IMG/VR virus record: IMGVR_UViG_3300018875_000003
Location: 1-64,000 of that record
DNA: 64,000 nt
Direction: 5' to 3' (one strand)
Source: a virus
In this document: one piece after another, positions 1 to 62,090 of the stretch
How positions within the stretch are numbered: position 1 is the stretch's first letter
Layout of the letters: the number at the start of each line of letters is the position of its first letter
Translations under genes and position numbers: made by a program
The notes under the pieces: model-generated
Told to the model about the DNA's origin: nothing
Database searches by the model: none
The model's input: only the letters and a program-made list of their open reading frames with translations

Positions 1-3000
1 GCCAGTTTCGATCGCCTTCGCGGTAAGCGCTGGTAATGCAGATCGTCTGGCCGGTTCTCTTCTTGTATTCCTTACCGAGCGCTTCGAGCAGGTCGTAGCT
101 GGCTTGACGGACATACGGCGAAGATGTAACCATTGTCAGTTTCATATTTGTCAGCGGCTGCTTCCGGATATCGATACATGCCTTTGCAGCTTCGGCAGAG
201 GACTTCAGACGGTACTTCACTTTTCCTTCATTTCCATAGATCACAGGTTTTTCCCCTTTCGTTTGTGCGCCGTTTGCAATAGTTGGCGGTTGGTAGTTCG
301 GATCGTATTTCGCAATCTTGGCCATGATGCTTGCAATCCCGTGCGCCCAGTTCTTATCCGTTGCATATTTGACATTCATGCCTTCCAGTGTCGGGCCATT
401 GTAGTACTTCCCGCCTTTGGTCAGGTAGTTGTCTTTCACCTTATTGGCTGCGTAAATTACACAGTCAGCTGGGCTTGCAAACGTATAAGCGCTGTCGTAT
501 GGGCTGCTGTCATAAGCGCCGTATCCGAACAGGTTGTTTTTATCTTTGAATATTCTCGATGTTCCCCATCCGGTTTCCCAAGCAGCGTGGGCTGCAAGGT
601 AAAGGGCGTTCATAACGCGTCCGCCTTCATTCGGAGATTCGATAATATTGGTCAGCGGGTGTGGTGCTGGAGGAATATTGGACTCTATCGACACGAAAGT
701 CTTACCGAGACCAGCCAGCTTTCCGTGACCGGCAAAAGCCTTGTCGATCGCTTCTGCAGATATCCCGCTTGGCTTATTCAGATCGAGTGTTTCATAACTG
801 GTTCCGTCCGCATTGCTTGCTGAAGAACCGAAGGCGTTCTGGAAGTCGTCCATTGTCAGAAGAGAAGATTCCTCTGCGGCGTAGGAAGCTGAGCGCTTAT
901 TCTCTGCATCCTTTTCTTCCAAGTGTCCCTGCATCGCAGCGGCAGCATCCTTTTTATCGGCTTCGTACTGATCAGACATCGCCTGGCTGAATGTCACCGG
1001 CTTACGGTGCGCCTCGATGAAGTTCTTAGCGAATACATTCATATCCAGTGTGTTGTCCTGCTCTGTGCTTGCTGCCAGCGCTCTGACACCATACGCATCG
1101 TCCAGGTTGCTTCCATCCACTGGAGCATACCGGCTTACGTCTGCGCCGAGGAAACCGAGAACAATGGAGCCTACGGTGCCGGTCAGCAGCCGCGTCCATG
1201 TATCTGGTGAGTCTCCGATGACGGATCCCTGGTGGCCGTTGATGCCTGCCGAGAACTCGACGCCTTCTTTACGCAGTGTTGCGATCAGGACAGCGTGCCG
1301 TGTAAAGAGGAAACGCTCAATCCATTCGGAGATGCCGCGAGTCACCAGCTCCGTTACTGCAAATTCGATTGCATATCCGAGCCAGCCAACTGGTCCAAGG
1401 AATGCAGCACCGATACCGATGATTCCCTGTATTCCTCTGCGCCCCCACTTGGCTCCCTTGCCGATATACTTCGCTGATGAGAATATGGCTTCAGACGCAA
1501 CGGTCTTCAGCTTAGCAATTTTATTTAGGTCCACTTTATCATAGCTCAGGAATCTACGATTGGACAAAGCGCCATCCAGCTTATCAAAGAGGTTCTGACC
1601 GTCCTTGAACGTGAACCCTTCGATTTTCGACATCAAATCTTTTAATAGTCCGCTTTTTTCCCATCTCTTTTTCATTTCAGTAGAAACGGGCGAATACTCC
1701 CGGACTTCGCCAGTAATCGGATCGACTTCGAAGATCGGCCCAGCGCCGCCCTTATAGACCGTGGCTTTGCCATCACTGCTCAAAGCGGACTTTGTTTTAT
1801 CGAGCAATGAAGTTGCCCGATCCTTCATCCAGCTGGAATCCCACTTACCCATCATGGCGTTATATCTGCGCTTCGTGGAAGCCCACAGCGCATTCATGAT
1901 CGGCATCGTTCCTTGATATCCTCTGTTGCGCATCATGTGCCGCAACATGGTCAGGGCAAATGCCTGTGCTGCTACAGAGCCAGCTGTGATCCAGAAGTTG
2001 GTCATCTTCGTATCGGAGTTGACCGCGCAAGCGTCCGGCTTAATCATCGTGATATAACCGACATCGAAGTTCATGATATGCGTGACTTCCCTGATCTCCA
2101 CCGGACCGCTCATATCTAAATAGGTGTCATATAGATAGATTTGGTTGTGTGGCTTGGCGGATGGATCGCCCATCACCGTTAGGTAGCCGTCATACATTTC
2201 CTTCACCAGGTCTCGCAGTCCGGCTGCTGCAATGCGAATAGCGGTGTATTCATCGAAGTACCATTTGAATGGCTTGTTCAGCCAATGGCCGATGAGCGGG
2301 ATATTCTCGATGAGACGAACGCCCTGCAGGTTGAGCTGCGTATCGATCTGTGCCGTGCGCTGCTTCTCTGGCCAGATGTTCGTATCGACATAGATAAAGT
2401 CCGTCGTATCCATCTTGCCTTCATCGTAGTAAACGCCTTGAGCGACCGTATACACATTCTCGTCTGTGGCTACGATGCTGTTATCGATGATGCTGCTCCA
2501 GCTATCGTAAACATGAATCTGGCGGAATGGTTTCCGGCGAATCTTGATTCCGGTATAATCCGTTTCGTCGTCTGACAGTTTGAAATTAAACGGATTCATC
2601 TGGTTCCAGAAGGAGTAGTATCCGCTTTGCTGCGTGGCTTGCTTCTCGTCAGCCAGAACGTATTCGTATCCTACCGGGAAGTACGGCTTTCCATGGAAGA
2701 TGGTATTCCGGAAGTCAAATGGATGAACGGCGACGATAAAGTCCTCAGCCACTGCTGCTGTGATATTGAGAACATCCCAAACGGTCTTATCGTACAGGTT
2801 GATGTTGATACCCTGCTCGTCGCTTTCCCCGATCCCGAAGAAGTCGCCCAGTTTGCTCCAGAATCCGTTGGCTTCAGTCTTATACTTACCGGTCGTTTCA
2901 TAGATGTTCATCGTGATCTCATTCTGCGGTCGGTCGGAAAGCTCTGATCGCCAGAAGTAGTTGATCGGCTTACCCGGCATACCGAAGTGCATAATGCCGA

Positions 3001-6000
3001 GGGAATGCTGCGCATATGCGGAGTTGCTGAGATTGTTGGCATACCAGTTCATCAGTGCGCCCTGGTTGTCCGTCAGCAGCTCATCCAGAACCTCTGTCGG
3101 CTCCTGTGTGCTGTAGATGAATCCCCGGGTCTGCTCGTCAGGCTTTGCCTTCAGTTTATTCGTCAGCTCGATGCCGTCATCCTGAGCCACGACCGTTACG
3201 GTTTCTCCGTTATTCTGAACCTGCGTTACGACGCCGTTCATCATGGTCGGCATGTTCATCGGGTTGCTGCCGTAGCCCATTCGGAAGTGAATGCGCGCGC
3301 CGGTGCGCAGATACATCGATTTGTACCAGGAAGTATCCGAGTACCGCGAGTTGCCCATAAGGTCCTCGGTGCGGCCGATGCCGATCCGGTTACTCTCCGC
3401 TTCCTTGGCTGCCGACCCAGGAACGAACATAGCCTGCATCAGATCACCTGTGCTGGTGTGCGTCAGGTCGTTCGACTTGATTGCATCTGTTAGCTTACCG
3501 AACACATTCGCCATCTCCATAACCAGCGTACTGGATGCCATCTTACGGCTGTTGGTATAGGTGATGTCTGTCACTGCCCGGTAGCCGAAGAACTGGTCGG
3601 ACATCTTCACGGCGCCCATGAACTGCCCTTCGTCGATAAACATCAGGAAGAAAGTTGGGAATGCTCGCACCAGGCGGCCGCGGCGATCGTACTTAATTGT
3701 ATCGTGATACATTTCCTTGAGCGTGGTCTGTTCATCTTCGAAAGCTTTCTCATCCAGAATCTTCTCCTGGAATGTTGGCTCTGCGCTGTTCATGCTGACG
3801 GATTTGTAGTCTGCGACAGGCAGCTTGGAGTAGTCTGCGTCCACCGTGGAGCTGACCTTCAGCGCGTTAACGCTGGCCATGATCTTTTTGATCAGGGCAG
3901 TAATGCTGGCCGGCATCTTCTTATTGGAGTTCGCCAGCTGGTAATACTCCCGCTCGTATCCCAGATAAGCACAGAGTGCGTTGATCCATTTCGTCTTGGA
4001 TGTGTCCTGCAAACCAAAGGCTTTCGCCACATTGGTATTAGGCGATTTAGCAGATGCGCGTTCCAGATAGTATTTCAGAGACGCGATTCCCTGTTCGATG
4101 TTGTACTCGATGTTATTGGCAAGACCGTTTGGTTCACCCATGACTGGACTGACACGCATAATGCCGATGTACTTCGCATTGCGCAGGTAGTTGGTGTCCT
4201 TGAAATATTTCATTTCCTGATTCATCATGATTGGCACGTTGGCCTTGGAGACTACCATCCCACCGAGGTCTTTGTTTGTGCCATCACCGACTTCATAGAA
4301 CTGCCGCAGCTTCTTATCGAAAGATGTGGCGAGCGCCAGGCAGAGTCTTTGATCCAGCGATTGATCCTTCGCCTTCTTCCGGATGATCGTTTCCACATCT
4401 GCTGCTGACAGGTTCTTCTTATCCGTAGAGTCTGGCGCCGGTGTCAGTGCGCTTGCGTTTTTAATCGCCAGTTTCTCCCGCTCAATAGCTGCTGCCGTGT
4501 TATCATCCGGCGTTGTGGTTGCGCCTTTGACTTCGCCCTGTCCGCCGATGTAATCTCGAACGGATGCCGTGACGTCGCCGCCATCGATAAATTGTCCGAT
4601 CTGTTCTCCGAAGTCAATCGGGTCTGAATAGATGAGGAAGAAGTCTGGGTCAACGTAGATGCCGTCATTCAGGTTCTTAATCTCGAAGCCGGCTGCTTTT
4701 ACCTGTGCATAGGTCGGCAGCTCCAGGTCAGGATACACCTCGACGCCTTTCATCATTTCTTTGACCTGCTGATCGTAGACCGCCTTCTTACGGACGTCCA
4801 GACTCATGAATCCGCCGAATGGGTCTTCACGGAGCCAAGGTTTATCGTCCAGATTCCACCATGCGCGATCTGCCCAGCCAATCTGCCAGTCAATCCCTTT
4901 GGAGAGCCATTCTGTTTCTGCGATCCGCTTCTGAGCCCGGTTGTAAGAGCTGAGTGTCAGCGTGATGCTGTACGACCCCGGCTGCCCTTCAATCGTGGAG
5001 GTTTGCAGGTCTTCTACGACCATGTAGTGAGCCCCGAACAAACGAGTGAGCTGGTGTTCAAACTGAATGAATCCGTTGGAGATTTCGCGGTGGTATTCAC
5101 GGGAAAGATAGCCAGAACGCTGAACCAGAGAGGTCAAGCTGCCGAGGGCTTCTTCATCTTCAGCAAAGAACTGAAGAACGAAGATCGTATCCTGTGATCC
5201 GAGGTATTGGTGCGTAGGCGATTCGTGCATTTGCAGCTGAACCGGCGTGATGACATTCTCATAGCCTGCACTCATTTGCTGCAAGTGGAGCCCTGCGACA
5301 TCCCAGTTTTCCATAAATACATCCATCTCGCTGATGACCTTTCCCGGGTTTGACCGATACAGCTCACCAATCGTATCTTTGAATATCTTCTCGTCAGCTT
5401 CATCCCTGAATGTGCCTTCCCAAATCGGAAGCCCATCCTCATCGTATTTAACGGCTTCGCTGAATACTTTTGGAATCGGAACGCCATCAATCCATTTGTA
5501 GTCGTCCTCGCTGAATCCCGAGTTATTCTGCATATCTTTCGTATACGCTTCGATCAATTTATTGCGGCTGTTTCTCCATTTACGGATGAACTGTAAATCC
5601 TCTTCTGCTGCGATCTTGAAGATATAATCATTGTTCAGGTCTTGCTGCAGCGGCTCATAATAAATAATGAGATTCGCTGGGTCTGGCTTGAGATTACGCT
5701 GGTAATGCCAGCGGAATAGTGGCCAGTTAAACATCTCATCAAACGTTCGGTCCGAGTCATCCATAATGTAGGCGAACGGGTTAAAGGCGTACAGCTGCAG
5801 CTTGGCTTCAAGTGAATGAGGGAAGCCATCTACGGTCTGAACGCTTACACTTGCCACCGTCACCGCATCGATTTTATACGTATTATTCAGCAGCGTATTT
5901 TCAATCGGCAGGAAGGGACACTTGCGCACTTGGGCCAGCAGTGGCCGAAGCTCATTATTGATGCTGACGAGATCGGGGAAGAATAGGCTCAGCTCTACGA

Positions 6001-6196
6001 TTTGATCGGAGTAGCCGCTGCCCTTTACAAAGCTTCCTCGTCCGCGCAGCACATTTATCTTGTCTTGTTTCATACGCCGCTGAACATGAATTGCAGTCGG
6101 GGGTACGTAAAACTGCGTATCCCCGATCCGCAAGAAATGATCACGCAGGCTACCATAGAGGGAATCTCTATCGTCATAACCAAGCGTTGTTGCCAT
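1..6196 (-). CDS. Giant tail protein with cell-wall lysin domains (partial, runs off left edge)
   Basis: The reading frame opens at an ATG at 6196 behind AGGAGG (6203-6208) and stays open to base 1, giving at least 2065 residues; the end lies outside the window. The first ~600 residues look like a baseplate or tail-tip protein, rich in Asp, Tyr and Phe. A hydrophobic Gly/Ala stretch follows near residues 1590-1620. Residues ~1836-1963 resemble a GH73 glucosaminidase: AWETGWGTS holds the likely acid Glu1874, followed by NLFGYGAYD and a repeated Tyr/Asn pattern. The last visible residues (~2005-2065), with TSAYREGD, resemble the start of a VanY/M15 peptidase. The inferred role is local peptidoglycan cutting during DNA entry. 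It is the last gene of the tail set, directly after the exonuclease-polymerase gene. Family calls are by eye; the M15 part is cut and less sure. Confidence 0.75.
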   Translation of the reverse strand, partial: MATTLGYDDRDSLYGSLRDHFLRIGDTQFYVPPTAIHVQRRMKQDKINVLRGRGSFVKGSGYSDQIVELSLFFPDLVSINNELRPLLAQVRKCPFLPIENTLLNNTYKIDAVTVASVSVQTVDGFPHSLEAKLQLYAFNPFAYIMDDSDRTFDEMFNWPLFRWHYQRNLKPDPANLIIYYEPLQQDLNNDYIFKIAAEEDLQFIRKWRNSRNKLIEAYTKDMQNNSGFSEDDYKWIDGVPIPKVFSEAVKYDEDGLPIWEGTFRDEADEKIFKDTIGELYRSNPGKVISEMDVFMENWDVAGLHLQQMSAGYENVITPVQLQMHESPTHQYLGSQDTIFVLQFFAEDEEALGSLTSLVQRSGYLSREYHREISNGFIQFEHQLTRLFGAHYMVVEDLQTSTIEGQPGSYSITLTLSSYNRAQKRIAETEWLSKGIDWQIGWADRAWWNLDDKPWLREDPFGGFMSLDVRKKAVYDQQVKEMMKGVEVYPDLELPTYAQVKAAGFEIKNLNDGIYVDPDFFLIYSDPIDFGEQIGQFIDGGDVTASVRDYIGGQGEVKGATTTPDDNTAAAIEREKLAIKNASALTPAPDSTDKKNLSAADVETIIRKKAKDQSLDQRLCLALATSFDKKLRQFYEVGDGTNKDLGGMVVSKANVPIMMNQEMKYFKDTNYLRNAKYIGIMRVSPVMGEPNGLANNIEYNIEQGIASLKYYLERASAKSPNTNVAKAFGLQDTSKTKWINALCAYLGYEREYYQLANSNKKMPASITALIKKIMASVNALKVSSTVDADYSKLPVADYKSVSMNSAEPTFQEKILDEKAFEDEQTTLKEMYHDTIKYDRRGRLVRAFPTFFLMFIDEGQFMGAVKMSDQFFGYRAVTDITYTNSRKMASSTLVMEMANVFGKLTDAIKSNDLTHTSTGDLMQAMFVPGSAAKEAESNRIGIGRTEDLMGNSRYSDTSWYKSMYLRTGARIHFRMGYGSNPMNMPTMMNGVVTQVQNNGETVTVVAQDDGIELTNKLKAKPDEQTRGFIYSTQEPTEVLDELLTDNQGALMNWYANNLSNSAYAQHSLGIMHFGMPGKPINYFWRSELSDRPQNEITMNIYETTGKYKTEANGFWSKLGDFFGIGESDEQGININLYDKTVWDVLNITAAVAEDFIVAVHPFDFRNTIFHGKPYFPVGYEYVLADEKQATQQSGYYSFWNQMNPFNFKLSDDETDYTGIKIRRKPFRQIHVYDSWSSIIDNSIVATDENVYTVAQGVYYDEGKMDTTDFIYVDTNIWPEKQRTAQIDTQLNLQGVRLIENIPLIGHWLNKPFKWYFDEYTAIRIAAAGLRDLVKEMYDGYLTVMGDPSAKPHNQIYLYDTYLDMSGPVEIREVTHIMNFDVGYITMIKPDACAVNSDTKMTNFWITAGSVAAQAFALTMLRHMMRNRGYQGTMPIMNALWASTKRRYNAMMGKWDSSWMKDRATSLLDKTKSALSSDGKATVYKGGAGPIFEVDPITGEVREYSPVSTEMKKRWEKSGLLKDLMSKIEGFTFKDGQNLFDKLDGALSNRRFLSYDKVDLNKIAKLKTVASEAIFSSAKYIGKGAKWGRRGIQGIIGIGAAFLGPVGWLGYAIEFAVTELVTRGISEWIERFLFTRHAVLIATLRKEGVEFSAGINGHQGSVIGDSPDTWTRLLTGTVGSIVLGFLGADVSRYAPVDGSNLDDAYGVRALAASTEQDNTLDMNVFAKNFIEAHRKPVTFSQAMSDQYEADKKDAAAAMQGHLEEKDAENKRSASYAAEESSLLTMDDFQNAFGSSASNADGTSYETLDLNKPSGISAEAIDKAFAGHGKLAGLGKTFVSIESNIPPAPHPLTNIIESPNEGGRVMNALYLAAHAAWETGWGTSRIFKDKNNLFGYGAYDSSPYDSAYTFASPADCVIYAANKVKDNYLTKGGKYYNGPTLEGMNVKYATDKNWAHGIASIMAKIAKYDPNYQPPTIANGAQTKGEKPVIYGNEGKVKYRLKSSAEAAKACIDIRKQPLTNMKLTMVTSSPYVRQASYDLLEALGKEYKKRTGQTICITSAYREGDRNW

Positions 6197-6206
6197 GCTT
6201 TGCCTC

Positions 6207-9200
6207 CTATGAATACTCCTCCACTTTATCCCGGTACCAGTTTCGGGAAAGCTTCGCGGTGTTGTCGGTATGATTAATGCTCATATTCATCCGGCCGCCG
6301 CCGAAGTTCGACTGCTGCATCCCCTGATGGACCATGCGGGAGAAGTCCTGAGTATTCTGATTGTTACCTTTTGCCTTTACTTCAATGCTTGCTCCGCCCT
6401 GTGAGGCACCTGAATAATCAAGGCCTGGAAGTGCAGGTGCAGGCGTGCCGCCACCGTAATTTGGTGCCTGATCGGCAGCAGTCGGTAGTGGCGCATTGTA
6501 TGGCGTTACAGGTTCAGTAGAACTAAGAGTATTGTACCCTATAACCCCTGCCAGCGCTAGGGCTGCACCGCCCATAATCATTTTATTTCTCTTTCCGTTT
6601 GCGCCATCGAATACCGTTTCCATCGCTCGCTTGACGGCATCGTTTGCACGCATGCCCATCATGCCACCCGTCATGTCTTCGATCGTCTCCGAGAACATGC
6701 CGGCAATACCTCCAGACCTGCGGGCTGCTCGCTCGAAGAAGCCTGGTTCGTTTGGCTCCACTCGGAAGCCGGACTCCGACATGCCTGCCCCTTCGCCATC
6801 GATACCCATCAGGTTTCGGATCAGTCCGAGACCGGAGTTAGAGCTGCCGCCTTCACCGAAGATGGAATCCACGATGCCGCCGACACCTACCCGCTCGGGA
6901 CTCATACCGCTGCTGGTACCGAACTTTTTGAATGGGCTGCTCAGTCCACCATCCAGACTGTGAATCTTCTGGAGTTCGCGGATCGCTGACTCGTGACCGG
7001 TAACACCATCCGTGTTGCCGAAGAACTGCCGATCGAACTCATGGACTCTTCTCCAGTCGGATTCCGTAGATGCTCGGTACATGGAGTTGATAAACGACAT
7101 CGCGTCATCGATCTCCTGCGCACCGTGCTTGGATGAGATCAGCTTCTGCTCCAGGTCTTGACCGAAGTCATAGATGGCTTGGCGGGCTGCATCATCGTGA
7201 CCGAGGAACGTTTTCGCTTGCTGCCGCATCGCGTAGTTTAAGTTGGATGCGTGGCCGATTACCATCTTGCCGGACTTCGCTGTCAACTCCGATCGCTCGT
7301 TGGCGGCGAACTCAGTAAAGTGCTCCTTATCCGATAGCGATTCCAGATCGAAGTTCCGGCTCCGGTCTTCGTCATAATCAGACCATAGCTTCTGAATAGC
7401 CGAGGAGCGCTCTGCTGCGCGGTCGTGGTAGATACGCGCCCACTCGTTCTGAATCTTGTCATTCGTGATGGCCACGATGTTATCGTAGTCACCGTCAGAG
7501 TCGGCTTTCATCAGAGCGGATGTCAGGGCGGTTACATGGAACTCGCCTTCCCGGATGCCTTCCTTCATCTGCAGCTTCGTCACTTGCATCGCATTATCAT
7601 GAAATGTCGGATACCGGACGTTCATCGCATACGTGTCGGTCCCGGCAGCCAGCCGGTCGTACACACCCATCTTCCGAGCGTCTTCCGGGGAGATAAAGGT
7701 ATACTCGCCGCCGAGGGATTCTGAAGCTTTCGGATCGATCAGCTTGAAGATACCGCTACCGGACTGGTTCATGTTCGTCTTGAACACGCTGCTGTACGTC
7801 TGCCCCTGGGAAGAGGTAACGTCTTTGGCCAGACGGTTTACGTATCGGTCGATCGACTGCTGCAGCTTGCCTTGGGCTTCTACGGCTTCATCGTAAGAGG
7901 ACACGCCATTGTTCTTGCCGATCGCAGCTGCTCTCCGGTAGATGTCTGCAATATGATTTTGCAGATCCCGCAGGTACAGCTCCCCACCCTTGCCTTCCTG
8001 TGCCGTGAATGGCACGAAGATTTTATCGATGGATTTTCGCACTTCCCTGCGGTTCACGCCGCTGCCTTCTACCCGATCCACATAGCTGTAGTTCAGGTCT
8101 CCGACTTTCGGCAACTCCAGCCAGTAGCCTTGCTGGCTTGTATTCTCTCCGAGCATCTGGGAGACGTGCGCCCGGTCGAAGATCGTACCCACCATGGAGT
8201 TCTGGTTGTAACCGTCCACCGGCAGATCGCGGAAGTCGCTGACCGATAATGCCCGTCCTGATACCGAGTCTGGGTTAACGAACGTATTCAGCGCGGTGAT
8301 CATGTTTCGGGATTCCTGCGCCCGGTAATTCGATTCATTGGTTGCCAGCATGCGATTGTACATATACTCTTTGGTAGCCGAAGCTCCCATGTTATCCAGT
8401 ACGCCATATTCACGATGGCCCCATGTTACACCCTTGATTGCATTCTCGCCGCCTGCATATATCGGCTCATCTCCTCGGAAGCCGATAACCACTCGTCCAG
8501 TGTCATCTGTCATTCGGGAATAGTTCTGAACCTGCGAAGCCCGAACCTCCTGAATGGCCGTTGTCAGGCCGGTCGCCGTTTTGTTATTCAGGTTGATGTC
8601 TGGATGAGCGAACAGCTTGTTGAAGGCATCTGTGCTAATGTCGTTCTGCGGATTCGCCAGGAAACGATCGCCTTGCCAATCCAGACCGATGCCAGACTCC
8701 CTGACGGCCGCCAGCGCCCGCTCCTGCTGCGCCGGATTCATGTCTTGAATGTGGTCGGCAAGCAGCTTGGCTTGACCGGTCATCATCGCACCAAAGTCTT
8801 TGTGCTTCTTCACGTCTGGGTTGTAGATCGCCATGACGTCATCAGAACCTGTCAGGTATTTCATTAATTCTCTGGATACTACCGTGTCTGTGGTCTTCTC
8901 CCCCTCGATCATGAATTTGAAGGGACGGTCTTCGGTGTGAATGCCGATTCGGTTCTCATCATGGTCGGTGAAGATTGTGCCGGACTTATTGCCCTGGTAG
9001 TAAACCTTCTCGTCTACTCCGCCGATCGAACGTGCCCCCAGCAGGTCGCCTGGGTTTACAGTGCGCTTCAGATGCCCGTCTTGGTAGAACTCACTGTTCC
9101 AGGTGAAGACGTCTCCTTTATCGATGAAGCTATGGTTGTCTACTTTGTAGGCATCCATGATTTCTTTCGTAAAGATGGCCTGCTGCTCATACAGTCTGGC

Positions 9201-12200
9201 TTTCAGAATCGGATCAGAGATCTGGTCTTTGATGTCCTGACTGACCTTGCTGTCGGCCAGCAGCTGCGCTACTCGGTCGTCCAGTTGCCCCTGGGACATA
9301 TAGGCGACCTTCATGTTCACGCCACGCTGCGCAGGATTGGCTGCATTGCGCTCTTCCATGGCTGCCGTTGTAACGAGACCCCCAAAGTAAGACGGCTTCA
9401 TGCCGGCTTCCAGGAGCCCCTGACGTGTGCGCTCATTGACGTTGTAGGAGTTGAACCACTGCACGGCATTGTCGCGGCCGTTAAAGCTGAATGCGCCGAG
9501 TGGATGATAATCCTGAACGTTCTGGAAGGACCAGATACCCTTCGATACATTCTCCGATTTTACGCTGCCGGCAAAGATGTTCAGGCCTTTTCCAGCTGCC
9601 CAGTCATCGACTTCTTTCAGCATCTCATACGCTTTGTGCGGAGACAGATCGTTGAAGGTTGCATGCCGGATGTCGCCGCCGCGCTGCAGCTGTCCACGTA
9701 GTCCGTCTTCCCGTATATCCCGGTCCAGATCGATACGTCCGGCAGCATGCCAGTCTGCGATCATTGCTGGCGCCACGCTGACGTGAGATTGCTTCAGGAA
9801 GTCAGAGTCATTGTTGCCCCAGTAGTATCCGTCATTCTGGGAAACGACGTTGCGCTTGATGCCGGACAGTGATTCGATCTCGCCGCGCAGCGCCCGTCTG
9901 CTTCGAGTATTGGCTTCTTCGTAATCATCGTCTCGCACAGCATTGAGGATGTTGCGCATCTCTCGGGAGTCTGTGTAGCCTCTGGCGATCATCTCAGCCG
10001 AGGAGATGGTCTTGGTCTCGCCGCCTTCATTCACGAGGAAGGAGCGGGCATTGAGGACTTGGTTGCCGATAACATGTGTGCCGTTCTGCTGAATCAGCGG
10101 TACGACCACTTCGGCTGCTTTACTGTGCGATTCGCCGGCAAGGAATTTCTCCATGACGCTCGCGCTGTTCTCGCTCTTGAAGATTTGAATCTTCGCCTGT
10201 GTGCCTTCCTGATTCAGGGATAGGTTGTATTGTAAACCGTGGATGCCCATCCGATCGGCAGTCGTCCGGTAGTTCTCCAGAACGTGGTTGACGGCTGCGT
10301 AGTTGTTGCTGCGCAGTCCTGACGCATGTTGGATGCTGTCGAGTCTACCAAACAAGTCGATCGCTCCGTCATCCATCTTCACTCGTTCATTCTGAATACC
10401 GTGCTGCATGATGAATCCTTGAATCCCACTTGTCTTGGTCAGAGCCGATTGAATCATCGACTGGTTGACCCCTTCGCTGATCTGCTGCATCTCCACACGG
10501 CGGCCGACCGATTTGATCTTCAGGTTCTGCTGCATAATGTCATGGTTATCCATCAGGTCTTGCACCATCATGTTAATACTGTCGTTGATGGCGTAGCTTC
10601 GGTTAAACTCGTGGAACTTACCGGCTACCTTCCGATCAATGACTCCACTCTCCTGCAGGGAGGTAATCATATTGCCGAGGCGTTCTTTCTTGCGATCTAC
10701 CGTATCGTCCGGTTTGCCGATCTGACGGTAGATTGCATTACGGGCAGTCTCCATGCTTTCGAAGTTCAAATACCGCTGCTCTTTACGGGCGCTGGTTCGA
10801 TCAACGTAGTGGATGCCGCGCTGCTCGAATGGCTGTGTGGCGCGCTCAGTCATGTCGCCGCCGACTTTGCTGTTTACCTCCTGGCTGTATAAACGCCAAG
10901 CGATATCTCGCTGCTGCCGGACTCGGCGCACTTCCTTATCGCTCATGCCTGGAGTGATCGCGTATTTCTCTTCAATCGCCTGGATTGCCTGATTGTAATG
11001 CGGCAGCTCGTCTACAAGACGAGGAGCCATCCGGAAGAACAGCTTCTGCTCGGCTTCGTTGAACTTGCCACCCGGCAGACTGTTGAAGTCCATTCGACTC
11101 ATCATCTCTTCGTGAGTAATCCGGCGATCCATCATCTGCTTACGTGTTACAGAAGTGTCGGCATCCATCTGTTGCAAGGTGCGCTGGATGTGGGAGTCTT
11201 TCCCGGACAGACGCTCTTGATAGATAGCGGCATTGCTATACATCCGTTTGGCTGCTTCAAAACCGCGAGTCGTTGTATTGCCGCCTGCGCCGGACAGGGT
11301 GAACAGGTTGTCGTAGCGTCTGCGGGCGAGGTCGGTTTCCTTTTGAACACGAATCTCCCGCTGCATTTCCTTGGTTAATCCATTCCAGTTGTAGAACTTG
11401 CGCTGGACGAAGTTTTCGATCTGCTCAATCGCATCGTTTCCTTCGCGGATGATGAAGGAAGTTTTCTTACTCTCCGGATCATACAGGTCAAGCGCCAGTC
11501 GGTTTGTTCGCACCGTGCCGTCTTCATTTAAGTCAGAGATGTTGCGCAGCCCCTGTACTTCATAGAAGGACTTGCTGTTGATGGCCATGCGGTTGAAGTC
11601 CGGGTCTTCTGCTTTGAATGCGCCGTCTACCAGATCGGCCTGGAAGTCACTGGCTCCATTGCCGTAAGCCATAGCACCTCCGATAGAGAACAGCCGGTCG
11701 CCGCGCTTCAGCACGCGATCGCTCCAGCTCAGCTCCGTAGGACGGTAGCTGAATCCGAACGTATCAATACCAGGCAGCTCCTTGGCTTGCTCCACTTTGG
11801 ATCCGATGCCGTTAAACATTCGGGCAAATACACCGCCAAGGCCTTCCTCCCCGATATCGTGCATTGCGTTGTGGGCTGCGCCTTGGTCAAATCCGAATGT
11901 CCGGCGAAGCTCCTGCAGCGTAGCCAGACCACCAAGCGCCGGTTTGGATTCAAAGCTGCGCCCGAAGTCGGTGTGCAGTCCCTTCATATTTGGATACGAA
12001 GACTGAATGACTCTCAGGAAGTCGATGTGCTTTTTCGGACCCATGATCGGCTGACCCATTTTCTGACTCCATAGCTCCAACGCTGGAATATCGAAGTTGG
12101 TTCCGTTATGAGACAGGAAGTATTTATACCGGTTGTCGTGCATGAACTTATTGTACCGGTTGATAACGCCGAGGTGATCCTTTTCCCCGTTCGCCTGCAG

Positions 12201-12977
12201 GTCATTGAAACCCTGGTTGATGTGGCGAAGGTAGAACTCGAAGTTCTGTATAAACTTCAGGTCATCGATCGTGCCATCTGTACGCAGAATCTGGTTGACG
12301 ACTTGGTTGTGGGTGATATTTGTAATCCCTCGGTTCGTCTGCAGAAGCGCACCGGACACGCCGCCTTCGTTTGATGTACTGTAGCGCATCAAGTCAATAA
12401 CTGTCCGCTGCTCAGAGGATGTCATTTTACGGAAGCTGTACGGGTCTGTCTTGATTTTCTTAATCAATCCCTTTACTTCCGTGGCTGATTTATTATCCAG
12501 TGCCAGCAGCGCGCTGAACACGCTTTTCGCGTTAGCCTTGTAGCTGCCGTCTGCTTGACGGGAAAATCCCTGCGCGGCAATCTCAGTGACACCGAATCCT
12601 GCGCCGCCGTTCTTTGCACGGTCGCCCATAGTCTCGATATCGAAAGCAATGTATGAGTTGTGCTTGCTGCTCGGGTCTTTCGCTTTCTGTACGAAGTTCT
12701 GGAAAACCTCGATTGCGCTTCGGGACTGGTTGCCGTTAGCGGCGTAGTACTCTGGCATGACCTTGTACTTGCCTTGGCCAATGATCGACTGTGGCATAAT
12801 CCGGGAGTTATTGATCTTCTCCACCAGCTGATCGACCTGTCCTTTGCGGCTGTCTTTCTTGGCGTAGTTCGGACTTGTAACGGGATTGAAAGCCGTCACA
12901 GGAACCCAGGTTCCGCGGCTGTTTGGAGCAACCGCTTGGAACCCTTCGGCCATTAATATATCCTCAATTCCTGCCAT
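6207..12977 (-). CDS. DEDDh exonuclease fused to single-chain RNA polymerase (beta-prime-like barrel), probable virion protein
   Basis: This 2256-residue protein starts at ATG 12977 after AAGGAAG. Residues ~108-378 carry a complete DEDDh exonuclease set: DIET (113-116), HNGTNFD (290-296), Asp319, and HNAMHD (369-374). Residues 1788-1793 read RYPTFH and residues 1825-1830 read ADSDGD. In spacing and content this matches the beta-prime double-psi barrel of cellular RNA polymerase (RxPTxH followed by ADFDGD, whose three aspartates bind catalytic Mg). A lone hydrophobic Gly/Ala segment lies near 2129-2150, followed by a Pro/Gly-rich tail. The gene sits between the tape-measure-position gene and the tail lysin, so it is probably packaged and ejected, as proposed for crAss-like phage virion polymerases. 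The exonuclease and barrel motifs are seen directly. RNA synthesis, packaging and any proofreading or host-DNA-degrading role are inference. Confidence 0.8.
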   Translation of the reverse strand: MAGIEDILMAEGFQAVAPNSRGTWVPVTAFNPVTSPNYAKKDSRKGQVDQLVEKINNSRIMPQSIIGQGKYKVMPEYYAANGNQSRSAIEVFQNFVQKAKDPSSKHNSYIAFDIETMGDRAKNGGAGFGVTEIAAQGFSRQADGSYKANAKSVFSALLALDNKSATEVKGLIKKIKTDPYSFRKMTSSEQRTVIDLMRYSTSNEGGVSGALLQTNRGITNITHNQVVNQILRTDGTIDDLKFIQNFEFYLRHINQGFNDLQANGEKDHLGVINRYNKFMHDNRYKYFLSHNGTNFDIPALELWSQKMGQPIMGPKKHIDFLRVIQSSYPNMKGLHTDFGRSFESKPALGGLATLQELRRTFGFDQGAAHNAMHDIGEEGLGGVFARMFNGIGSKVEQAKELPGIDTFGFSYRPTELSWSDRVLKRGDRLFSIGGAMAYGNGASDFQADLVDGAFKAEDPDFNRMAINSKSFYEVQGLRNISDLNEDGTVRTNRLALDLYDPESKKTSFIIREGNDAIEQIENFVQRKFYNWNGLTKEMQREIRVQKETDLARRRYDNLFTLSGAGGNTTTRGFEAAKRMYSNAAIYQERLSGKDSHIQRTLQQMDADTSVTRKQMMDRRITHEEMMSRMDFNSLPGGKFNEAEQKLFFRMAPRLVDELPHYNQAIQAIEEKYAITPGMSDKEVRRVRQQRDIAWRLYSQEVNSKVGGDMTERATQPFEQRGIHYVDRTSARKEQRYLNFESMETARNAIYRQIGKPDDTVDRKKERLGNMITSLQESGVIDRKVAGKFHEFNRSYAINDSINMMVQDLMDNHDIMQQNLKIKSVGRRVEMQQISEGVNQSMIQSALTKTSGIQGFIMQHGIQNERVKMDDGAIDLFGRLDSIQHASGLRSNNYAAVNHVLENYRTTADRMGIHGLQYNLSLNQEGTQAKIQIFKSENSASVMEKFLAGESHSKAAEVVVPLIQQNGTHVIGNQVLNARSFLVNEGGETKTISSAEMIARGYTDSREMRNILNAVRDDDYEEANTRSRRALRGEIESLSGIKRNVVSQNDGYYWGNNDSDFLKQSHVSVAPAMIADWHAAGRIDLDRDIREDGLRGQLQRGGDIRHATFNDLSPHKAYEMLKEVDDWAAGKGLNIFAGSVKSENVSKGIWSFQNVQDYHPLGAFSFNGRDNAVQWFNSYNVNERTRQGLLEAGMKPSYFGGLVTTAAMEERNAANPAQRGVNMKVAYMSQGQLDDRVAQLLADSKVSQDIKDQISDPILKARLYEQQAIFTKEIMDAYKVDNHSFIDKGDVFTWNSEFYQDGHLKRTVNPGDLLGARSIGGVDEKVYYQGNKSGTIFTDHDENRIGIHTEDRPFKFMIEGEKTTDTVVSRELMKYLTGSDDVMAIYNPDVKKHKDFGAMMTGQAKLLADHIQDMNPAQQERALAAVRESGIGLDWQGDRFLANPQNDISTDAFNKLFAHPDINLNNKTATGLTTAIQEVRASQVQNYSRMTDDTGRVVIGFRGDEPIYAGGENAIKGVTWGHREYGVLDNMGASATKEYMYNRMLATNESNYRAQESRNMITALNTFVNPDSVSGRALSVSDFRDLPVDGYNQNSMVGTIFDRAHVSQMLGENTSQQGYWLELPKVGDLNYSYVDRVEGSGVNRREVRKSIDKIFVPFTAQEGKGGELYLRDLQNHIADIYRRAAAIGKNNGVSSYDEAVEAQGKLQQSIDRYVNRLAKDVTSSQGQTYSSVFKTNMNQSGSGIFKLIDPKASESLGGEYTFISPEDARKMGVYDRLAAGTDTYAMNVRYPTFHDNAMQVTKLQMKEGIREGEFHVTALTSALMKADSDGDYDNIVAITNDKIQNEWARIYHDRAAERSSAIQKLWSDYDEDRSRNFDLESLSDKEHFTEFAANERSELTAKSGKMVIGHASNLNYAMRQQAKTFLGHDDAARQAIYDFGQDLEQKLISSKHGAQEIDDAMSFINSMYRASTESDWRRVHEFDRQFFGNTDGVTGHESAIRELQKIHSLDGGLSSPFKKFGTSSGMSPERVGVGGIVDSIFGEGGSSNSGLGLIRNLMGIDGEGAGMSESGFRVEPNEPGFFERAARRSGGIAGMFSETIEDMTGGMMGMRANDAVKRAMETVFDGANGKRNKMIMGGAALALAGVIGYNTLSSTEPVTPYNAPLPTAADQAPNYGGGTPAPALPGLDYSGASQGGASIEVKAKGNNQNTQDFSRMVHQGMQQSNFGGGRMNMSINHTDNTAKLSRNWYRDKVEEYS

Positions 12978-51088: not shown

Positions 51089-51262
51089 CTACTTTCCTTC
51101 GTTTTTCTCCATTGTGATCGCTTTGAGCAGCAAACGCCGACCCTCGCTCGCCCAATCGCCAGGCTTGATATTGCTGAAATGCTCATCGATCTCCGTATCC
51201 ACTTCGCGGATAATAACTTGGATTTTCGGAATCTTCGGCGCTTTGTGTTCTGCCATGTTCAT
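51089..51262 (-). CDS. 57-aa ribbon-helix-helix-like partner of the actin-like protein
   Basis: The start ATG 51262 overlaps the actin stop as ATGA. The product (57 residues) has a short polar start, a strand (KIQVIIREV), then two helices (TEIDEHFSNI and WASEGRRLLLKAITMEK), the layout of small ribbon-helix-helix proteins such as ParR-like adaptors. In plasmid and prophage actin systems (for example ParM/ParR and AlpC/AlpA) a small DNA-binding adaptor of this kind lies directly next to the filament gene and binds an iteron site. Here an iteron array stands before the actin gene. The fold is inferred by eye. Confidence 0.5.
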   Translation of the reverse strand: MNMAEHKAPKIPKIQVIIREVDTEIDEHFSNIKPGDWASEGRRLLLKAITMEKNEGK

Positions 51263-55961: not shown

Positions 55962-56504
55962 ATGACTACACAAGCATTCAGCAAGAAAGGTCTTAACATT
56001 CTTCAAGGAGCAAGCATCCAAGGCGCACGCTTACTGGGTCAAACAGTACGTGGCATGGATAAGGTAGCTGCTGTGGTTGCCCCTGTATTGGGTACGGCAT
56101 GGAGCGTTATTAAGAAGGTAGGCATCGCTGTATACGATATGGTACGTGATGACATCGTTCAGTTGGCAGGCTTTGTACGTGAGCACAAATGGCAGACAGG
56201 TGTAACAGTAGCCTCTGCTGTGGTAGGTGGCATGGCTACCTCCACTATGGTAGGGGCTTCTATACTGGCTGCTATCCTGGCTATGACTACCATTGTCACT
56301 GTACACTACCTGATTGCGAAGCGTAAGAAGCAAGCTATGGACTGGCGTACAACCATTGCAGCAGCGCTTCTTTCTGGAGCATGGGCGTTTACTATTCCAT
56401 TCGCTGTATTCACCCTGCTTGCAACGCTTATCTTTGGTGCATTCTTCGTATTCAAAGGTATGCTGCTTGTATTCGTACAAGTAGCTGCCCTGTTCGTGAT
56501 CTAA
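55962..56504 (+). CDS. Multi-pass membrane protein (180 aa)
   Basis: Starts at ATG 55962 after AAAGGAG. It has four or so hydrophobic stretches: near 37-55 (AAVVAPVLGTAWSVIKKVGI), 80-110 (TVASAVVGGMATSTMVGASI; AAILAMTTIVTVHYLI), 128-150 (TTIAAALLSGAWAFTIPFAV) and 150-180 (LATLIFGAFFVFKGMLLVFV). A basic loop AKRKKQAMD is probably inside the cell. No family is recognised; being the first rightward gene next to the polymerase gene suggests early expression and a membrane task such as superinfection exclusion. That is inference. Confidence 0.6.
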   Translation: MTTQAFSKKGLNILQGASIQGARLLGQTVRGMDKVAAVVAPVLGTAWSVIKKVGIAVYDMVRDDIVQLAGFVREHKWQTGVTVASAVVGGMATSTMVGASILAAILAMTTIVTVHYLIAKRKKQAMDWRTTIAAALLSGAWAFTIPFAVFTLLATLIFGAFFVFKGMLLVFVQVAALFVI

Positions 56505-56862
56505 TAGGTCATGGACATGGCATGGCATAGGTATATAGGGAGTACACGATAACGGTGGATGATCCCCTCTATAGGCTATGCCCTCTATCTATGTCCTGCA
56601 TGGTGACATAGGTAGCAGTACTGTATCATGCTATGCCTTGTATGTGGGCATATGGGCGTGTAGGTGCGCTTACTCATATACACCCCCTGCATAGTACGTA
56701 TTGGTTAAGGGTCAGCCGCCCCCATACGTAGTGTGCAGGGGTTTTCTTTTATTTACTTATAGCTCCCTGTATAGGTGGCCTATATAGACCCCCTCTATAT
56801 GGCACCCCCTATATAGGGAGCTGTATGTAAGTACAGCAAATACACTACTGGAGGTTTTCTGT
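56505..56862 (+). ncRNA. Structured non-coding region, candidate RNA ending at a terminator
   Basis: No gene fits here. TATATAGGGAG occurs at 56532-56542 and 56810-56820. An 11-bp stem (56585-56595 with 56605-56615, one G-U) lies in the middle. A large hairpin ending in TTTTCTTTT (56684-56750) could terminate a ~200-base RNA that starts near 56543. Around 56761-56822, 15-base arms AGCTCCCTGTATAGG and CCTATATAGGGAGCT form an inverted repeat. Candidate small RNA plus leader of the next gene. Confidence 0.35.
56684..56750 (+). terminator. Intrinsic terminator after the membrane-protein gene region
   Basis: CCCCTGCA (56684-56691) pairs with TGCAGGGG (56734-56741), reinforced by TACGTA on both sides, and is followed by TTTTCTTTT. 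It ends rightward transcription before the 57-residue and polymerase genes. Confidence 0.6.
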
Positions 56863-57036
56863 ATGACAAAGCAACTCTTATTAAGCAAAGGTGAACACCT
56901 GGGCTTCTGCCCAATGAAAGGCGATCTGTATTCGGTAGAATCGGGCCTTTCTATTTTCGGTAAGCCGCAATACCGCATTTATTCCCTGAAAGGAGATTCC
57001 ATCAGTGAACTCATCTCATTCCAAGTCATCCGCTAA
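56863..57036 (+). CDS. Small protein upstream of the polymerase (57 aa)
   Basis: ATG 56863 has GGAGG eight bases upstream, a perfect site. The product of 57 residues (LLLSKGEHLGFCPMKGDLYS, then FGKPQYRIYSLKGDSISELI) looks like a small beta fold. Its last codons hold AGGAG and a GTG at 57005 that could start the polymerase frame in overlap. No family is known. It is probably co-transcribed with the polymerase. Confidence 0.5.
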   Translation: MTKQLLLSKGEHLGFCPMKGDLYSVESGLSIFGKPQYRIYSLKGDSISELISFQVIR

Positions 57037-57106
57037 TCTGTCGTCCCGTCTGTCGTCCGCCGCTCTGTCCAACCAAACTAAAACTAACCAAAAGGGGTTT
57101 TCCACA

Positions 57107-60100
57107 ATGACAACTACTAACAACAACAAACAAGCTCAAATCAACAAGCAACTGGCTCAAGTTAATCGTCTGTTCAACCAAGCTGTAAAAGGCAACAAAG
57201 TGAAAGCTGAAATGTCCGAACTCAAGTCTGCTTCTGTAATCCTCGATGCGATCGCTACATTCCCAGGACTGGGCGTGAAAACGAAGAACTATGAAGCGAT
57301 CACAGCAGCTATGGCAGAAGGACACAGCCTGCGCAGCATCATGCTTAATCCGGAGCTGACCGGCGTAGCGAAGAACCAATACCGTTACTTCCGTGCATTC
57401 ATGGATGCTAAAGGTGACGACATCCCTGAGATGGTTATGGCTCCGACTCGTAAACGTGTACGTACTGTATCGGTCGATCTGCTGAAGCACTCCCGCAACG
57501 AAGCTGGTGAAGTGGTGCTCAACGCGGAGGTTAACTTCCAATCTCAGTCTCAGCTGGCTGATGCGTTTGGCTCCCTTGCTGCCGACGACAAGAGCGATCT
57601 GTACTTGGATATGGCTCACGTTGTTTACATCGACCTCAACATCGCTGATCAAGAGAATCAGGAATTGAAAGACTTGCAGGTCGAGGTTGTACGCAACGGA
57701 TTCTACTACAGTGTGGATGGCGTTACACACAAAGCCAACTTCTTCATTCAGACAGCATCCCAGGCTCGTCAGCTGCAAGGTATCTACATTGCCGAAGACT
57801 TCATGACGATCCCGCAAGCATTCAAGAAGCTGGGTCATGACTTCCTCGCTTACTGCAAACTGAGCAAAGATGGCATCTATACACTTGACATCACGAAGTA
57901 TCTGAAACGTCCAGGTCTGTCTGGTACAAGCTCGGTATCTTCGAAAGCAATCACATTCCCGAATGCTCGTATCAGCAAGCTGGCTAATATGACTACTGGT
58001 GAATACCTGGTTGAATCCGATCGTCACACGATGGCGGTTATCGAGGATCGCTTTGCAAAGATCACCAATGGCACATTCAAAGCATTCTACAACAACCGTG
58101 TGGTAACTGTGTCTGCTGTTGATGGTGTATTCACCGCTCAATGGAAAGATGGCCGTCTGACTAAACAAGAAGTGCTGCCTATGAACTACCTGAAGCTGGG
58201 TGTAGGCGATGGCTTGGTTCTGGCATCCGAGTCGATCTACTGGGCACTCAAAGCCGAGCATGGCAATGACTCTGACGCATGGCAAGTACGTATCACCCCA
58301 TTCGTTAAAGGTCTGATGGTATTCGTCCCTGGCCTGCGCAAGTATTATGATGCAGACATCGTTGCATTCAAATCCGCTGTGAAAGGTGACTTCCGCCTGA
58401 TCGCTGACGAAGAAGGACGCTTGGACTTTAACATCGAGCTGCGTATTGCTCGCTTTGCTAAACGTCCAGGTAAGAAAGCGGAGTATGTAGAGCTGCCGTA
58501 TCAGTTCGCTCACGTATCCAGCATCACTGCAGAGCAAATGATCAATGTAGCTGCTCCACGTCTGGAGGAAGCAAGAAACGTACTGTCCAACCCTGCACTG
58601 ATCCAGAAGTATACTGGCGTGGCTCACCTCGAAGACCTGAGCAAGCTGACGACTGCGGAAGCTGAGTTTATGCGTGATCGTTCCCTTGTATCCGTATTTG
58701 CTAACTTCATGCACTATGCCCCATTCACGTATGAGGATGCTTACATGCAAACACGCGCTCTGCAACTGATGGGACAGCAAGTAGACAAATGGGTTGCTGG
58801 TACAATCCCTGTAGAAGGCGAGTATCGCTTCATGGTTCAGGATCCGTATGCTCTGCTGCAAGCTGTGGCTGACGAAGATGGTGATATGATTGTTCCCGCT
58901 TCCGTTGGTCTGCGTCCGCATCAAACATTCATGACTGCACGCGATAACAAACACTTTGTGACTGGACCGGTTGCTTCCTTCCGTAACCCAGCGATCGCTA
59001 AAGGTGAAGGCCGCGTACTGAAAGGTGCTGCTCCGGAGAACTATGTAACCGCATCTGCGAAAGGCGCATTCAACTCGGTCTGCATCATGAGCTGCCACGA
59101 TCTGGACACGTTCGCTGAAGGCGGCGCGGATAACGATGGTGACGAAACATTCGTAACGCAAGTGCCTGAGATCGTAAACAGCATCATGGGCAAAGATGGC
59201 GAATCCAAGTTCCTGGCTATGCTTGACCTGCATGTAGGCAAAGATGGTGAGTGGGCTTCCGGTTGCCCGTTCCCTATGGAATCCGATGAGAAGCTGACAT
59301 TCGGTGCAGCATGCGTGGATCACGATGGACAATTCAAAGTGAAGTTCACTGCTGATCAATACGATGATGCTTTCATCCAAGCTGTGCATGAGCTGAGTAA
59401 AGAGTATGTCATCCGCACGCTGAACCCGAACAAGATCGGACAGCAAACAAACATCGCTACACGTCTGGCGGATGCTGTGCGTAAGGTTGGCTATATGTAT
59501 GCTGAGGGTGTAGACGAGTTCGGTCAAGCTGTCGATCGTACCGAAGCAGAGAAACAAGATCTGCTGCATGAGATTGTACGCATGGAAGAAATGATCGATC
59601 TGGTTCGTCTGACACAAGGATGGGAGATTGACCGTGCGAAGCATGGCGGTGCATACGAAGAAGCACTGGCTGCCGAGCTTAACTTCATCAACAACCCACC
59701 GAAGTATGCTGGCTTCCAGGAGAATCCGAAAGCGAAACGCGTATGGATCAAGCAAGCATGGTTGTCTCACCACAAAGGCACTGAAGGTGGAATCGATACA
59801 GGTTCTGTAATGAGCCGCGTACACAACCACATGAAAGCATTCGTACAGGAGAATGTAATCGACAAGTCTGAGGAAATCAAGAACGATGTCGAGAACAACA
59901 ACATCATCCATGTACTGAGAAGCGAATATGCTATCGATGCTAACAAGTATGAGGCTTTGGCTGCTGTGATCCGCTCGATCCGTGCATCCTACACTGCCGA
60001 CCTGATGAATGCCCGCAATAAGAATGCAGAGTTCAACAAGCTGGCTGAAATCAAATACAACGGCAACGACCACGCTATTCGTATGGCGAAAGCTAAGATC

Positions 60101-60667
60101 GAACGTATCTATAGCGAAGATTGCGATGCGATCACATTCAAGCACCAGGCTGCACTCGCTGCACTGGAATTGTCTTACTCTGCTACAGATATCGGCTATG
60201 TATCCTATATGGTGACATATACGGAGCGTGGTAAAGATGGCAACCGCTCGATCAGCTTCCCTTGGGTTGTGGCTAAGAAACAATTCCTGGAGCTGTGCGC
60301 GAAGATTGCTAATCGCGAGATCGTGAAGAATCCTTATCTGGTTCCCGCTTCTGAAATCAAAGCAAACTTCCGTATTGCAGAAGATCCACGCAGCACAGAA
60401 GGCAAACACTATGATGGTATGAAGATGGCTGAGGTTATCAAGCAAGCTGGTTCAATCGAGGTTATGTATACGCTGAACGAGGTAACTGGTGTGTATGGTT
60501 ACGTGGCATTCGTGCCTGTAGGCAGCAGACTGGTATATGTCGGAGATTTCTATCAGGATCAGGTTGCATTCATGACCGGAGCTACCCACTTCGAACTGAA
60601 TGTATCCAATGCAGAAGCAAAAGGACAAGCCATGACCCTGACAGTCTCCAGCGTAGGTCGTAAATAA
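57107..60667 (+). CDS. Single-chain DNA-dependent RNA polymerase, YonO / eukaryotic RdRP-like
   Basis: ATG 57107 (MTTTNNNKQAQINKQL) follows AAAGGGG by nine bases; a GTG at 57005 with AGGAG would add 34 Ser/Asn-rich residues but overlaps the small upstream gene. In the 1186-residue product, FRNPAIAKGEGRVLKG, then FNSVCIMSCHD and GGADNDGDETFV (Asp675, 677, 679) reproduce the catalytic barrel of the RdRP/YonO family (RxP..., then GGDxDGD). YonO of phage SPbeta is a known DNA-dependent example. The protein probably transcribes one class of phage genes. It is distinct from the beta-prime-like barrel in the 2256-residue protein. Codon use here (few TTA, CTA, TCA) leaves the opposite strand open for 1139 codons. 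Confidence 0.78.
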   Translation: MTTTNNNKQAQINKQLAQVNRLFNQAVKGNKVKAEMSELKSASVILDAIATFPGLGVKTKNYEAITAAMAEGHSLRSIMLNPELTGVAKNQYRYFRAFMDAKGDDIPEMVMAPTRKRVRTVSVDLLKHSRNEAGEVVLNAEVNFQSQSQLADAFGSLAADDKSDLYLDMAHVVYIDLNIADQENQELKDLQVEVVRNGFYYSVDGVTHKANFFIQTASQARQLQGIYIAEDFMTIPQAFKKLGHDFLAYCKLSKDGIYTLDITKYLKRPGLSGTSSVSSKAITFPNARISKLANMTTGEYLVESDRHTMAVIEDRFAKITNGTFKAFYNNRVVTVSAVDGVFTAQWKDGRLTKQEVLPMNYLKLGVGDGLVLASESIYWALKAEHGNDSDAWQVRITPFVKGLMVFVPGLRKYYDADIVAFKSAVKGDFRLIADEEGRLDFNIELRIARFAKRPGKKAEYVELPYQFAHVSSITAEQMINVAAPRLEEARNVLSNPALIQKYTGVAHLEDLSKLTTAEAEFMRDRSLVSVFANFMHYAPFTYEDAYMQTRALQLMGQQVDKWVAGTIPVEGEYRFMVQDPYALLQAVADEDGDMIVPASVGLRPHQTFMTARDNKHFVTGPVASFRNPAIAKGEGRVLKGAAPENYVTASAKGAFNSVCIMSCHDLDTFAEGGADNDGDETFVTQVPEIVNSIMGKDGESKFLAMLDLHVGKDGEWASGCPFPMESDEKLTFGAACVDHDGQFKVKFTADQYDDAFIQAVHELSKEYVIRTLNPNKIGQQTNIATRLADAVRKVGYMYAEGVDEFGQAVDRTEAEKQDLLHEIVRMEEMIDLVRLTQGWEIDRAKHGGAYEEALAAELNFINNPPKYAGFQENPKAKRVWIKQAWLSHHKGTEGGIDTGSVMSRVHNHMKAFVQENVIDKSEEIKNDVENNNIIHVLRSEYAIDANKYEALAAVIRSIRASYTADLMNARNKNAEFNKLAEIKYNGNDHAIRMAKAKIERIYSEDCDAITFKHQAALAALELSYSATDIGYVSYMVTYTERGKDGNRSISFPWVVAKKQFLELCAKIANREIVKNPYLVPASEIKANFRIAEDPRSTEGKHYDGMKMAEVIKQAGSIEVMYTLNEVTGVYGYVAFVPVGSRLVYVGDFYQDQVAFMTGATHFELNVSNAEAKGQAMTLTVSSVGRK

Positions 60668-60731: not shown

Positions 60732-61066
60732 ATAGCACACCCTTCGGGTAGGTGCTAATGCTATCGACAGACGCCTGCATGCTGCCCTGTGACGCCCTGC
60801 TCCTCTCGCATGACGAATCCTTCGACCGACAAGAAGGAAGCGGCAGACGAGACGACAGGCGGCTTATAGGACGCGTTCTTATGCAGCGGCTTATATATAG
60901 GCAAACTTACGGCAACTCAGCTCGACGGCTGAATCATACGATTATTGCGACCGGTGTGTGAGGGAGCTGCTTCGCACCACGATCGTTGCTGTTATTCGTA
61001 AGCTGAAATATAGCCTGTTTTCCTATATAGTCGATGGCATCATCACCTACCCGAAGGGTGTGCTAT
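60732..61066. repeat. 37-bp imperfect inverted repeats, 261 bp apart
   Basis: The left arm (60732-60768) contains TAGCACACCCTTCGGGTAGG and ends in ATGCTATCGAC; the right arm (61030-61066) is its complement, with four mismatches in the inner half. Each arm also holds a CCC-TTC-GGG mini-hairpin. No transposase and no target duplication is seen. Confidence 0.6.
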
Positions 61067-61392
61067 TCCTGGGCGTATGCGTATTTTGCGTATGTTGCTA
61101 TATGTGTGTGATCGATATCATATATCGTATTTCATACGTTGTATGCTCATTTCATATTTCGTATATCATATGCTATCGAAAGAGGTGAACCCACATCCGA
61201 AAATTTCTTGCTACTTGAGTATGATTTCATATAGCCTATATAGGTATCTTATGATGAAATAGGATGCTGTAGACGAAGGTCGCTAACGCTCCTGTGGCTT
61301 TGTGAATGTGTGTCTTATGAGTATGGCTATATGCTAATCGGACATACGCGAATGACGATAGATATACTATGACTATATAGGGAGATGTATAT

Positions 61393-62065: not shown

Positions 62066-62090
62066 TTAACTATATAGGAGGATTCATCAT

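Follow-up and report, generated by a model that had tools for sequence, protein, structure and literature searches.

What is a single giant protein doing in the tail region of a phage when it carries the catalytic residues of both an exonuclease and an RNA polymerase? The question is raised by P0001, a protein of 2256 aa encoded in the first 64,000 nt (positions 1–64,000, hereafter the window) of the 117-kb IMG/VR virus record IMGVR_UViG_3300018875_000003. Its gene is one stop-free open reading frame (ORF) on the minus strand at 6207–12977; the plus strand there is rich in stops, and long antisense ORFs that overlap this and the adjoining genes were discounted as frame shadows. The exonuclease residues are D113-I-E115-T, H290NGTNFD296 and H369NAMHD374, and the polymerase motifs are R1788YPTFH1793 and A1825DSDGD1830. 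A first-pass annotation made from the sequence had placed all of these in one frame of a virion-region protein. Every residue that it quoted is present, on a strand that it had left unstated, and the gene does lie within the late tail module. The explanation proposed here is that P0001 is probably a virion-borne, single-chain, two-barrel RNA polymerase in the tape-measure/ejection slot, with a DEDDh 3'-5' exonuclease at its N-terminus.

The pairing of motifs in P0001 is more than chance would give, because R-x-P followed 25–55 residues on by DxDGD occurs exactly twice in all six frames of the window (in P0001 and in the ORF at 57005–60667), because the motifs are invariant among homologues, and because Pfam models match at the locus. 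The family alignment consists of 11 full-length members, P0001 included, many of them only 20–37% identical, which come from phages or phage-plasmids (190–240 kb) of Paenibacillus, Bacillus, Oceanobacillus and Cytobacillus; D113, E115, D296, H369, D374, RYP and DxDGD are unchanged in all 11. The relatives were found through the adjoining proteins P0002 and P0003 and through plasmids. A tblastn search of P0001 against phages gave no match, nor did a single-sequence phmmer search against PDB.

The closest homologue, located by pattern searches and tblastn, is 78% identical and belongs to Paenibacillus sp. TCA20, on a contig of 206 kb (L038). Homologues at 31–37% come from Oceanobacillus profundus, P. 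rhizovicinus and additional IMG/VR contigs, and from records of 200–230 kb deposited as plasmids of Bacillus licheniformis, B. paralicheniformis, B. halotolerans, P. urinalis and P. rhizovicinus. Remoter ones occur in Bacillus phage KLEB27-3 (gp034), the metagenomic contig L021 and the Cytobacillus oceanisediminis plasmid pN497-ZHONG. In their records these proteins are annotated as 'hypothetical' or 'structural'; the depositors of KLEB27-3 labelled gp034 a 'structural protein', with the basis of the label not stated. A 1257-aa segment of a viral protein in BFVD (A0A7R7G2L5_1), probably a further member of the family, gave a full-length Foldseek match to the N-terminal half of P0001 (E 2e-28). 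Several PLSDB 'plasmids' of Bacillus, Paenibacillus and Cytobacillus of 200–240 kb (including L022 and L024) bear phage tail and virion genes.

The N-terminal domain is well supported, by its motifs and by a predicted RNase H-like fold, as a DEDDh exonuclease of the RNase_T/DnaQ superfamily. In a six-frame search the Pfam RNase_T model scored 24.4 bits at the locus against a cut-off of 24, and it scored 20.5 bits, below the cut-off, in an hmmscan of the whole protein. RNase_H_2 and PolB-exonuclease models match several family members, and the family profile also matches the ExoII region of B-family DNA polymerases. Structure prediction of this region, which the first-pass annotation had put forward as a check, agrees: in an AlphaFold2 model of residues 1–1000 built from eight sequences, the predicted local distance difference test (pLDDT) score is mostly 70–95 across the domain. 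Among the best Foldseek matches in PDB, TREX2 and Cas2-DEDDh rank first and ERI enzymes follow (probability 0.97–0.99, E only 0.05–0.1).

Support for a beta-prime-type polymerase barrel in P0001 comes solely from sequence comparison. The Pfam model RNA_pol_Rpb1_2 significantly matches the RYP...DxDGD segment of three homologues, those in KLEB27-3 (E 7e-5), G004 (1e-4) and G003 (3e-6, the one above the cut-off), and hmmscan places it there in L010 and L021 as well. A profile of residues 960–2100 matches phiKZ055 (E 0.012) and the largest subunit of Pol V (E 0.1), both at the DxDGD region. Residues 1700–1860 were compared by hhalign in local mode with 10 phage or bacterial RNA-polymerase-related targets and 10 decoys. 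E. coli RpoC came first of the 20, with RYPTFH on RAPTLH and ADSDGD on NADFDGD, at a probability of only 33%. No P0001 homologue matches PF05183, which finds the separate second polymerase only, and profile comparison of P0001 with YonO gave no match outside the DxDGD segment.

In the window, terminase, portal, capsid and sheath genes are followed by P0002, P0001 and the hub/lysin P0003. The order structural protein – P0001 slot – hub is shared with Moorella phage MTATph1, Bacillus phage KLEB27-3 and Acinetobacter phage ME3, and notes in the ME3 record equate the genes flanking the slot with YP_001429636 and YP_001429638 of phage 0305phi8-36, between which lies orf146. The orf146 product was assigned as tape measure mainly by tail length, and only its last 60 residues could be aligned to BtI1 (Hardies et al., PMC2147016). 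By synteny through ME3, KLEB27-3 and MTATph1, P0001 occupies the tape-measure slot of the tail module. Its most far-reaching part, recognisable as far as MTATph1, is the last ~60 residues, a possible anchor to hub or tail.

The structural genes and the gene of a second single-chain polymerase lie on opposite strands. PF05183 (the QDE-1/YonO family) matches a separate ORF of 1134–1424 aa in 5 related records, and the 57005–60667 product shares 37% identity with the PF05183-positive homologue in G004 (E 2.5e-178). In total, homologues are present in 7 records (the window and 6 related ones), and their family profile matches YonO with an hhalign probability of 94%. A recent duplication giving rise to P0001 and this polymerase was considered and found unsupported: the profiles are in register at RYP/DxDGD yet not significantly similar. 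In Thermus phage P23-45, a virion RNA polymerase fused to the tape measure transcribes the gene of a second, non-virion polymerase (PMC10770324). By analogy, the same two-polymerase plan appears to be present here, because P0001 is in the tape-measure slot and the second polymerase is found in the window and 6 related records.

The surroundings of the second gene are also distinctive. The window has 8 copies of the CTATATAG palindrome where 0.33 would be expected, and all of them are within 56.8–62.1 kb, around the gene (in 56500–57000 and 61000–62100). A noncoding leader of ~300 nt with a paired CTATATAG copy is conserved in Paenibacillus TCA20 (L038). These palindromes may be a promoter, an operator or a structured leader; no Rfam family was found at 55.7–64 kb of the window. 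Near the second polymerase of the related phage G003 there is a stand-alone DnaQ-like exonuclease (G003:C1:159770-160288, RNase_T E 1.2e-17).

The carriers look like phage-plasmids, because their records hold phage structural genes and the window holds a partition gene (51259–52506). The window appears to belong to a myovirus-like phage, probably a phage-plasmid, and its closest relatives make a Paenibacillus-like host likely. Coordinates of the features are collected in the table.

Features of P0001 and its surroundings in the window
Feature	Position	Strand	Basis
Fusion protein P0001, 2256 aa: DEDDh exonuclease, two-barrel RNA polymerase signature, C-terminal anchor (possible)	6207..12977	minus	single open frame; 11-member full-length alignment
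DEDDh exonuclease domain, ~residues 100-400	11778..12680	minus	AlphaFold2, Foldseek, RNase_T
ExoI motif D113-x-E115	12633..12641	minus	invariant 11/11
ExoII motif HNGTNFD (D296)	12090..12110	minus	D296 invariant 11/11
ExoIII motif H369-x4-D374	11856..11873	minus	H and D invariant 11/11
Candidate first-barrel (DPBB1) basic pair K1354...K1361	8895..8918	minus	K1354 invariant, 1361 = K/R; from conservation only
RYPTFH 1788-1793, counterpart of beta-prime RAPTLH	7599..7616	minus	RYP invariant 11/11; in-register hhalign to E. coli RpoC
ADSDGD 1825-1830, putative metal-binding DxDGD of second barrel	7488..7505	minus	DxDGD invariant 11/11; Rpb1_2 in homologues
Conserved helix FGQDLEQKLISSKHG (1938-1952), after barrel region	7122..7166	minus	alignment
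Hydrophobic segment 2133-2151	6525..6581	minus	hydropathy maximum of P0001
Conserved C-terminal ~60 residues (N..DN...L...W)	6210..6389	minus	kept to MTATph1, E 7.5e-8
P0002, upstream structural protein, 1959 aa	12990..18869	minus	homologue of ME3_35 / KLEB27-3 'structural protein'
P0003, baseplate hub / tail lysin, 2065 aa, runs off window	2..6196	minus	phrog_20474 E=0, Glucosaminidase, hub homologues
Second single-chain RNA polymerase, YonO-like (RNPAIAKGE...ADNDGD), presumed non-virion	57005..60667	plus	homology and family profile
Noncoding leader of second polymerase, paired CTATATAG palindromes at 56780 and 56809	56500..56860	plus	conserved in TCA20

If P0001 is a virion polymerase of this kind, infection could proceed in four steps. 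P0001 would be built into the tail beside the hub, where its conserved C-terminal segment may attach it, and on the precedents of P23-45, crAss-like phages and N4 it would leave the tail with or before the DNA. The DxDGD barrel would then transcribe pre-early genes, including that of the second, YonO-like polymerase, which would take over. During entry the exonuclease would remove nucleic-acid 3' ends.

Several observations weigh against this explanation. The AlphaFold2 model of residues 960–2100, at a pLDDT of 49.8, was too poor to be usable and yielded no convincing Foldseek match to a polymerase, so the two double-psi barrels are putative. The first barrel is a guess from conserved basic residues, with K1354 and K/R1361 as candidates. 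In MTATph1 the homologue (L003 10513–17869) is split by an IS21-like transposase/helper pair, and the exonuclease and C-terminus are kept but the polymerase core is missing. The exonuclease and polymerase parts are therefore separable, with the qualification that this gene is interrupted by the IS21-like element.

Within the proposed explanation, the role of the exonuclease is less firmly placed than its presence. A function in entry, with ends of DNA or RNA from the host or the incoming phage as substrate, is tentatively and slightly preferred to one in which the exonuclease trims or proofreads the transcripts of its own polymerase. An alternative that does without any functional tie makes the exonuclease a cargo that merely shares a chain with the polymerase and acts on host or incoming DNA (the host genome, defence-related ends, or phage ends before circularisation). 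The best structural matches include a DNA 3' exonuclease, TREX2, and Cas2-DEDDh, but the Foldseek E values are at least 0.05 and the RNA-type ERI enzymes match too. Nucleases recur in such tails: related phage-plasmids of B. velezensis and C. oceanisediminis have hubs with the annotation 'nuclease', and the BtI1 hub has a staphylococcal-nuclease domain (Hardies et al.). The presence of the exonuclease in MTATph1, which lacks the polymerase core, also fits a cargo, a weak point since that gene is interrupted. On this evidence the cargo alternative is possible but rather unlikely.

The converse alternative is that the exonuclease trims mis-incorporated or backtracked RNA 3' ends made by the polymerase in the same chain. 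Covalent fusion is kept in every homologue with an intact gene, and an ejected enzyme would presumably be without host cleavage factors. However, we know of no crAss-like virion RNA polymerase described with an exonuclease, MTATph1 retains the exonuclease without a polymerase core, and the paper on P23-45 has no mention of 'exonuclease' (PMC10770324). Such a proofreader is unlikely as things stand, and similarly unlikely is a whole class of virion-delivered, self-contained proofreading RNA polymerases, conserved across Bacillales phages, whose attached DEDDh exonuclease edits or trims their own RNA 3' ends.

P0001 could also be a dead relic, a tape-measure-like structural protein that was formerly a polymerase and nuclease. 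Its length and location suit a tape measure, and in the same slot of ME3 the gp36 protein (ME3_36; L006 7173–11984) has no detectable exonuclease and a degenerate DHDQD in place of DxDGD. This protein is perhaps a polymerase that has degenerated or diverged very far, or perhaps no relative at all; as a polymerase relic it was set aside, the support being weak and the DHDQD possibly non-homologous. Both sets of catalytic motifs in P0001 are strictly kept in 11 of 11 members across large divergence, which a dead protein would not need, and a relic is quite improbable. Least probable of all is a two-barrel DNA polymerase for DNA repair or replication start in the manner of archaeal PolD, which joins an RNA-polymerase-like core to a proofreading exonuclease (PMC4996933, PMC6355029): DEDDh domains are the usual proofreaders of DNA polymerases, but the motif has the three aspartates of the RNA-polymerase form, DxDGD, and is preceded by RYPT/RAPT as in RpoC, the gene context of a tail slot and a second RNA polymerase better fits the virion-polymerase plan, and the PolD exonuclease is Mre11-like and not DEDDh (PMC10721889).

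A virion polymerase in the tape-measure slot would extend that plan to phage-plasmids of Bacillus, Paenibacillus, Oceanobacillus and Cytobacillus. What this family adds is a strictly conserved exonuclease in the same chain as the polymerase signature. P0001 would be either an RNA polymerase that brings an editor of 3' ends with it or a cargo of polymerase plus nuclease that is ejected. Both readings can be tested directly, since isolates exist of phage KLEB27-3 and of B. licheniformis strains that carry such phage-plasmids. The part of the earlier reading that stands is a DEDDh exonuclease and a beta-prime-type DxDGD signature in one chain, in a tail position, with the joint conserved. To our knowledge no DEDDh exonuclease fused to a two-barrel polymerase is known. 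The first-pass annotation had called the joint undescribed, and no published account of a polymerase–exonuclease fusion in phage virions was found in the literature searched, mostly without subscription papers.

Compared with known systems, P0001 matches DEDDh enzymes such as TREX2, ERI1/3'hExo and DnaQ/RNase T in predicted fold and in each of the five catalytic residues, but these are stand-alone or associated with DNA polymerases. It shares the single-chain two-barrel signature with YonO of SPbeta and QDE-1, to whose family the second polymerase of the window belongs. CrAss-like phages carry their single-chain polymerase within a virion-encoded protein of very large size. The likeness to them that had been drawn earlier holds, from literature description, as a functional parallel and not as shared lineage or gene neighbourhood: they are another phage group, whereas the window phage has a contractile-sheath gene set. 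Membership of the crAss type was rejected on its neighbours (sheath, hub and partition genes) and its relatives (Bacillales phage-plasmids).

Virion RNA polymerases in the tape-measure slot were reported in 2024 from one phage group as an unsuspected association (PMC10770324). P0001 resembles gp96 of P23-45, with its partner gp64, in having a two-barrel signature in a giant tape-slot protein, a second single-chain polymerase in the genome and a hydrophobic segment. It differs in that P23-45 is a Thermus siphovirus and the gp96 polymerase is N-terminal in 5002 aa, while the barrel motif of P0001 falls within the last third of its 2256 aa; P0001 also has a leading exonuclease, and the paper describes no exonuclease domain (PMC10770324).

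The 0305phi8-36 lineage has the same gene order before the hub and a YonO/RdRP-family polymerase (orf99) elsewhere in the genome. The orf146 position is conserved in the last 60 residues only, and the C-terminal segment of P0001 likewise reaches distant relatives. In a difference that rests on comparison by description, orf146 is described as a tape measure, and neither a polymerase nor an exonuclease has been reported in it; for 0305phi8-36 a YonO-like enzyme has been listed and nothing at the tape-measure position (Iyer et al., PMC7824862). The present results suggest that the 'tape measure' genes of this lineage are worth re-examining as polymerases. The closest parallel to P0001 is the tape-measure-fused virion polymerase of P23-45, and its closest genomic context that of the 0305phi8-36 lineage.
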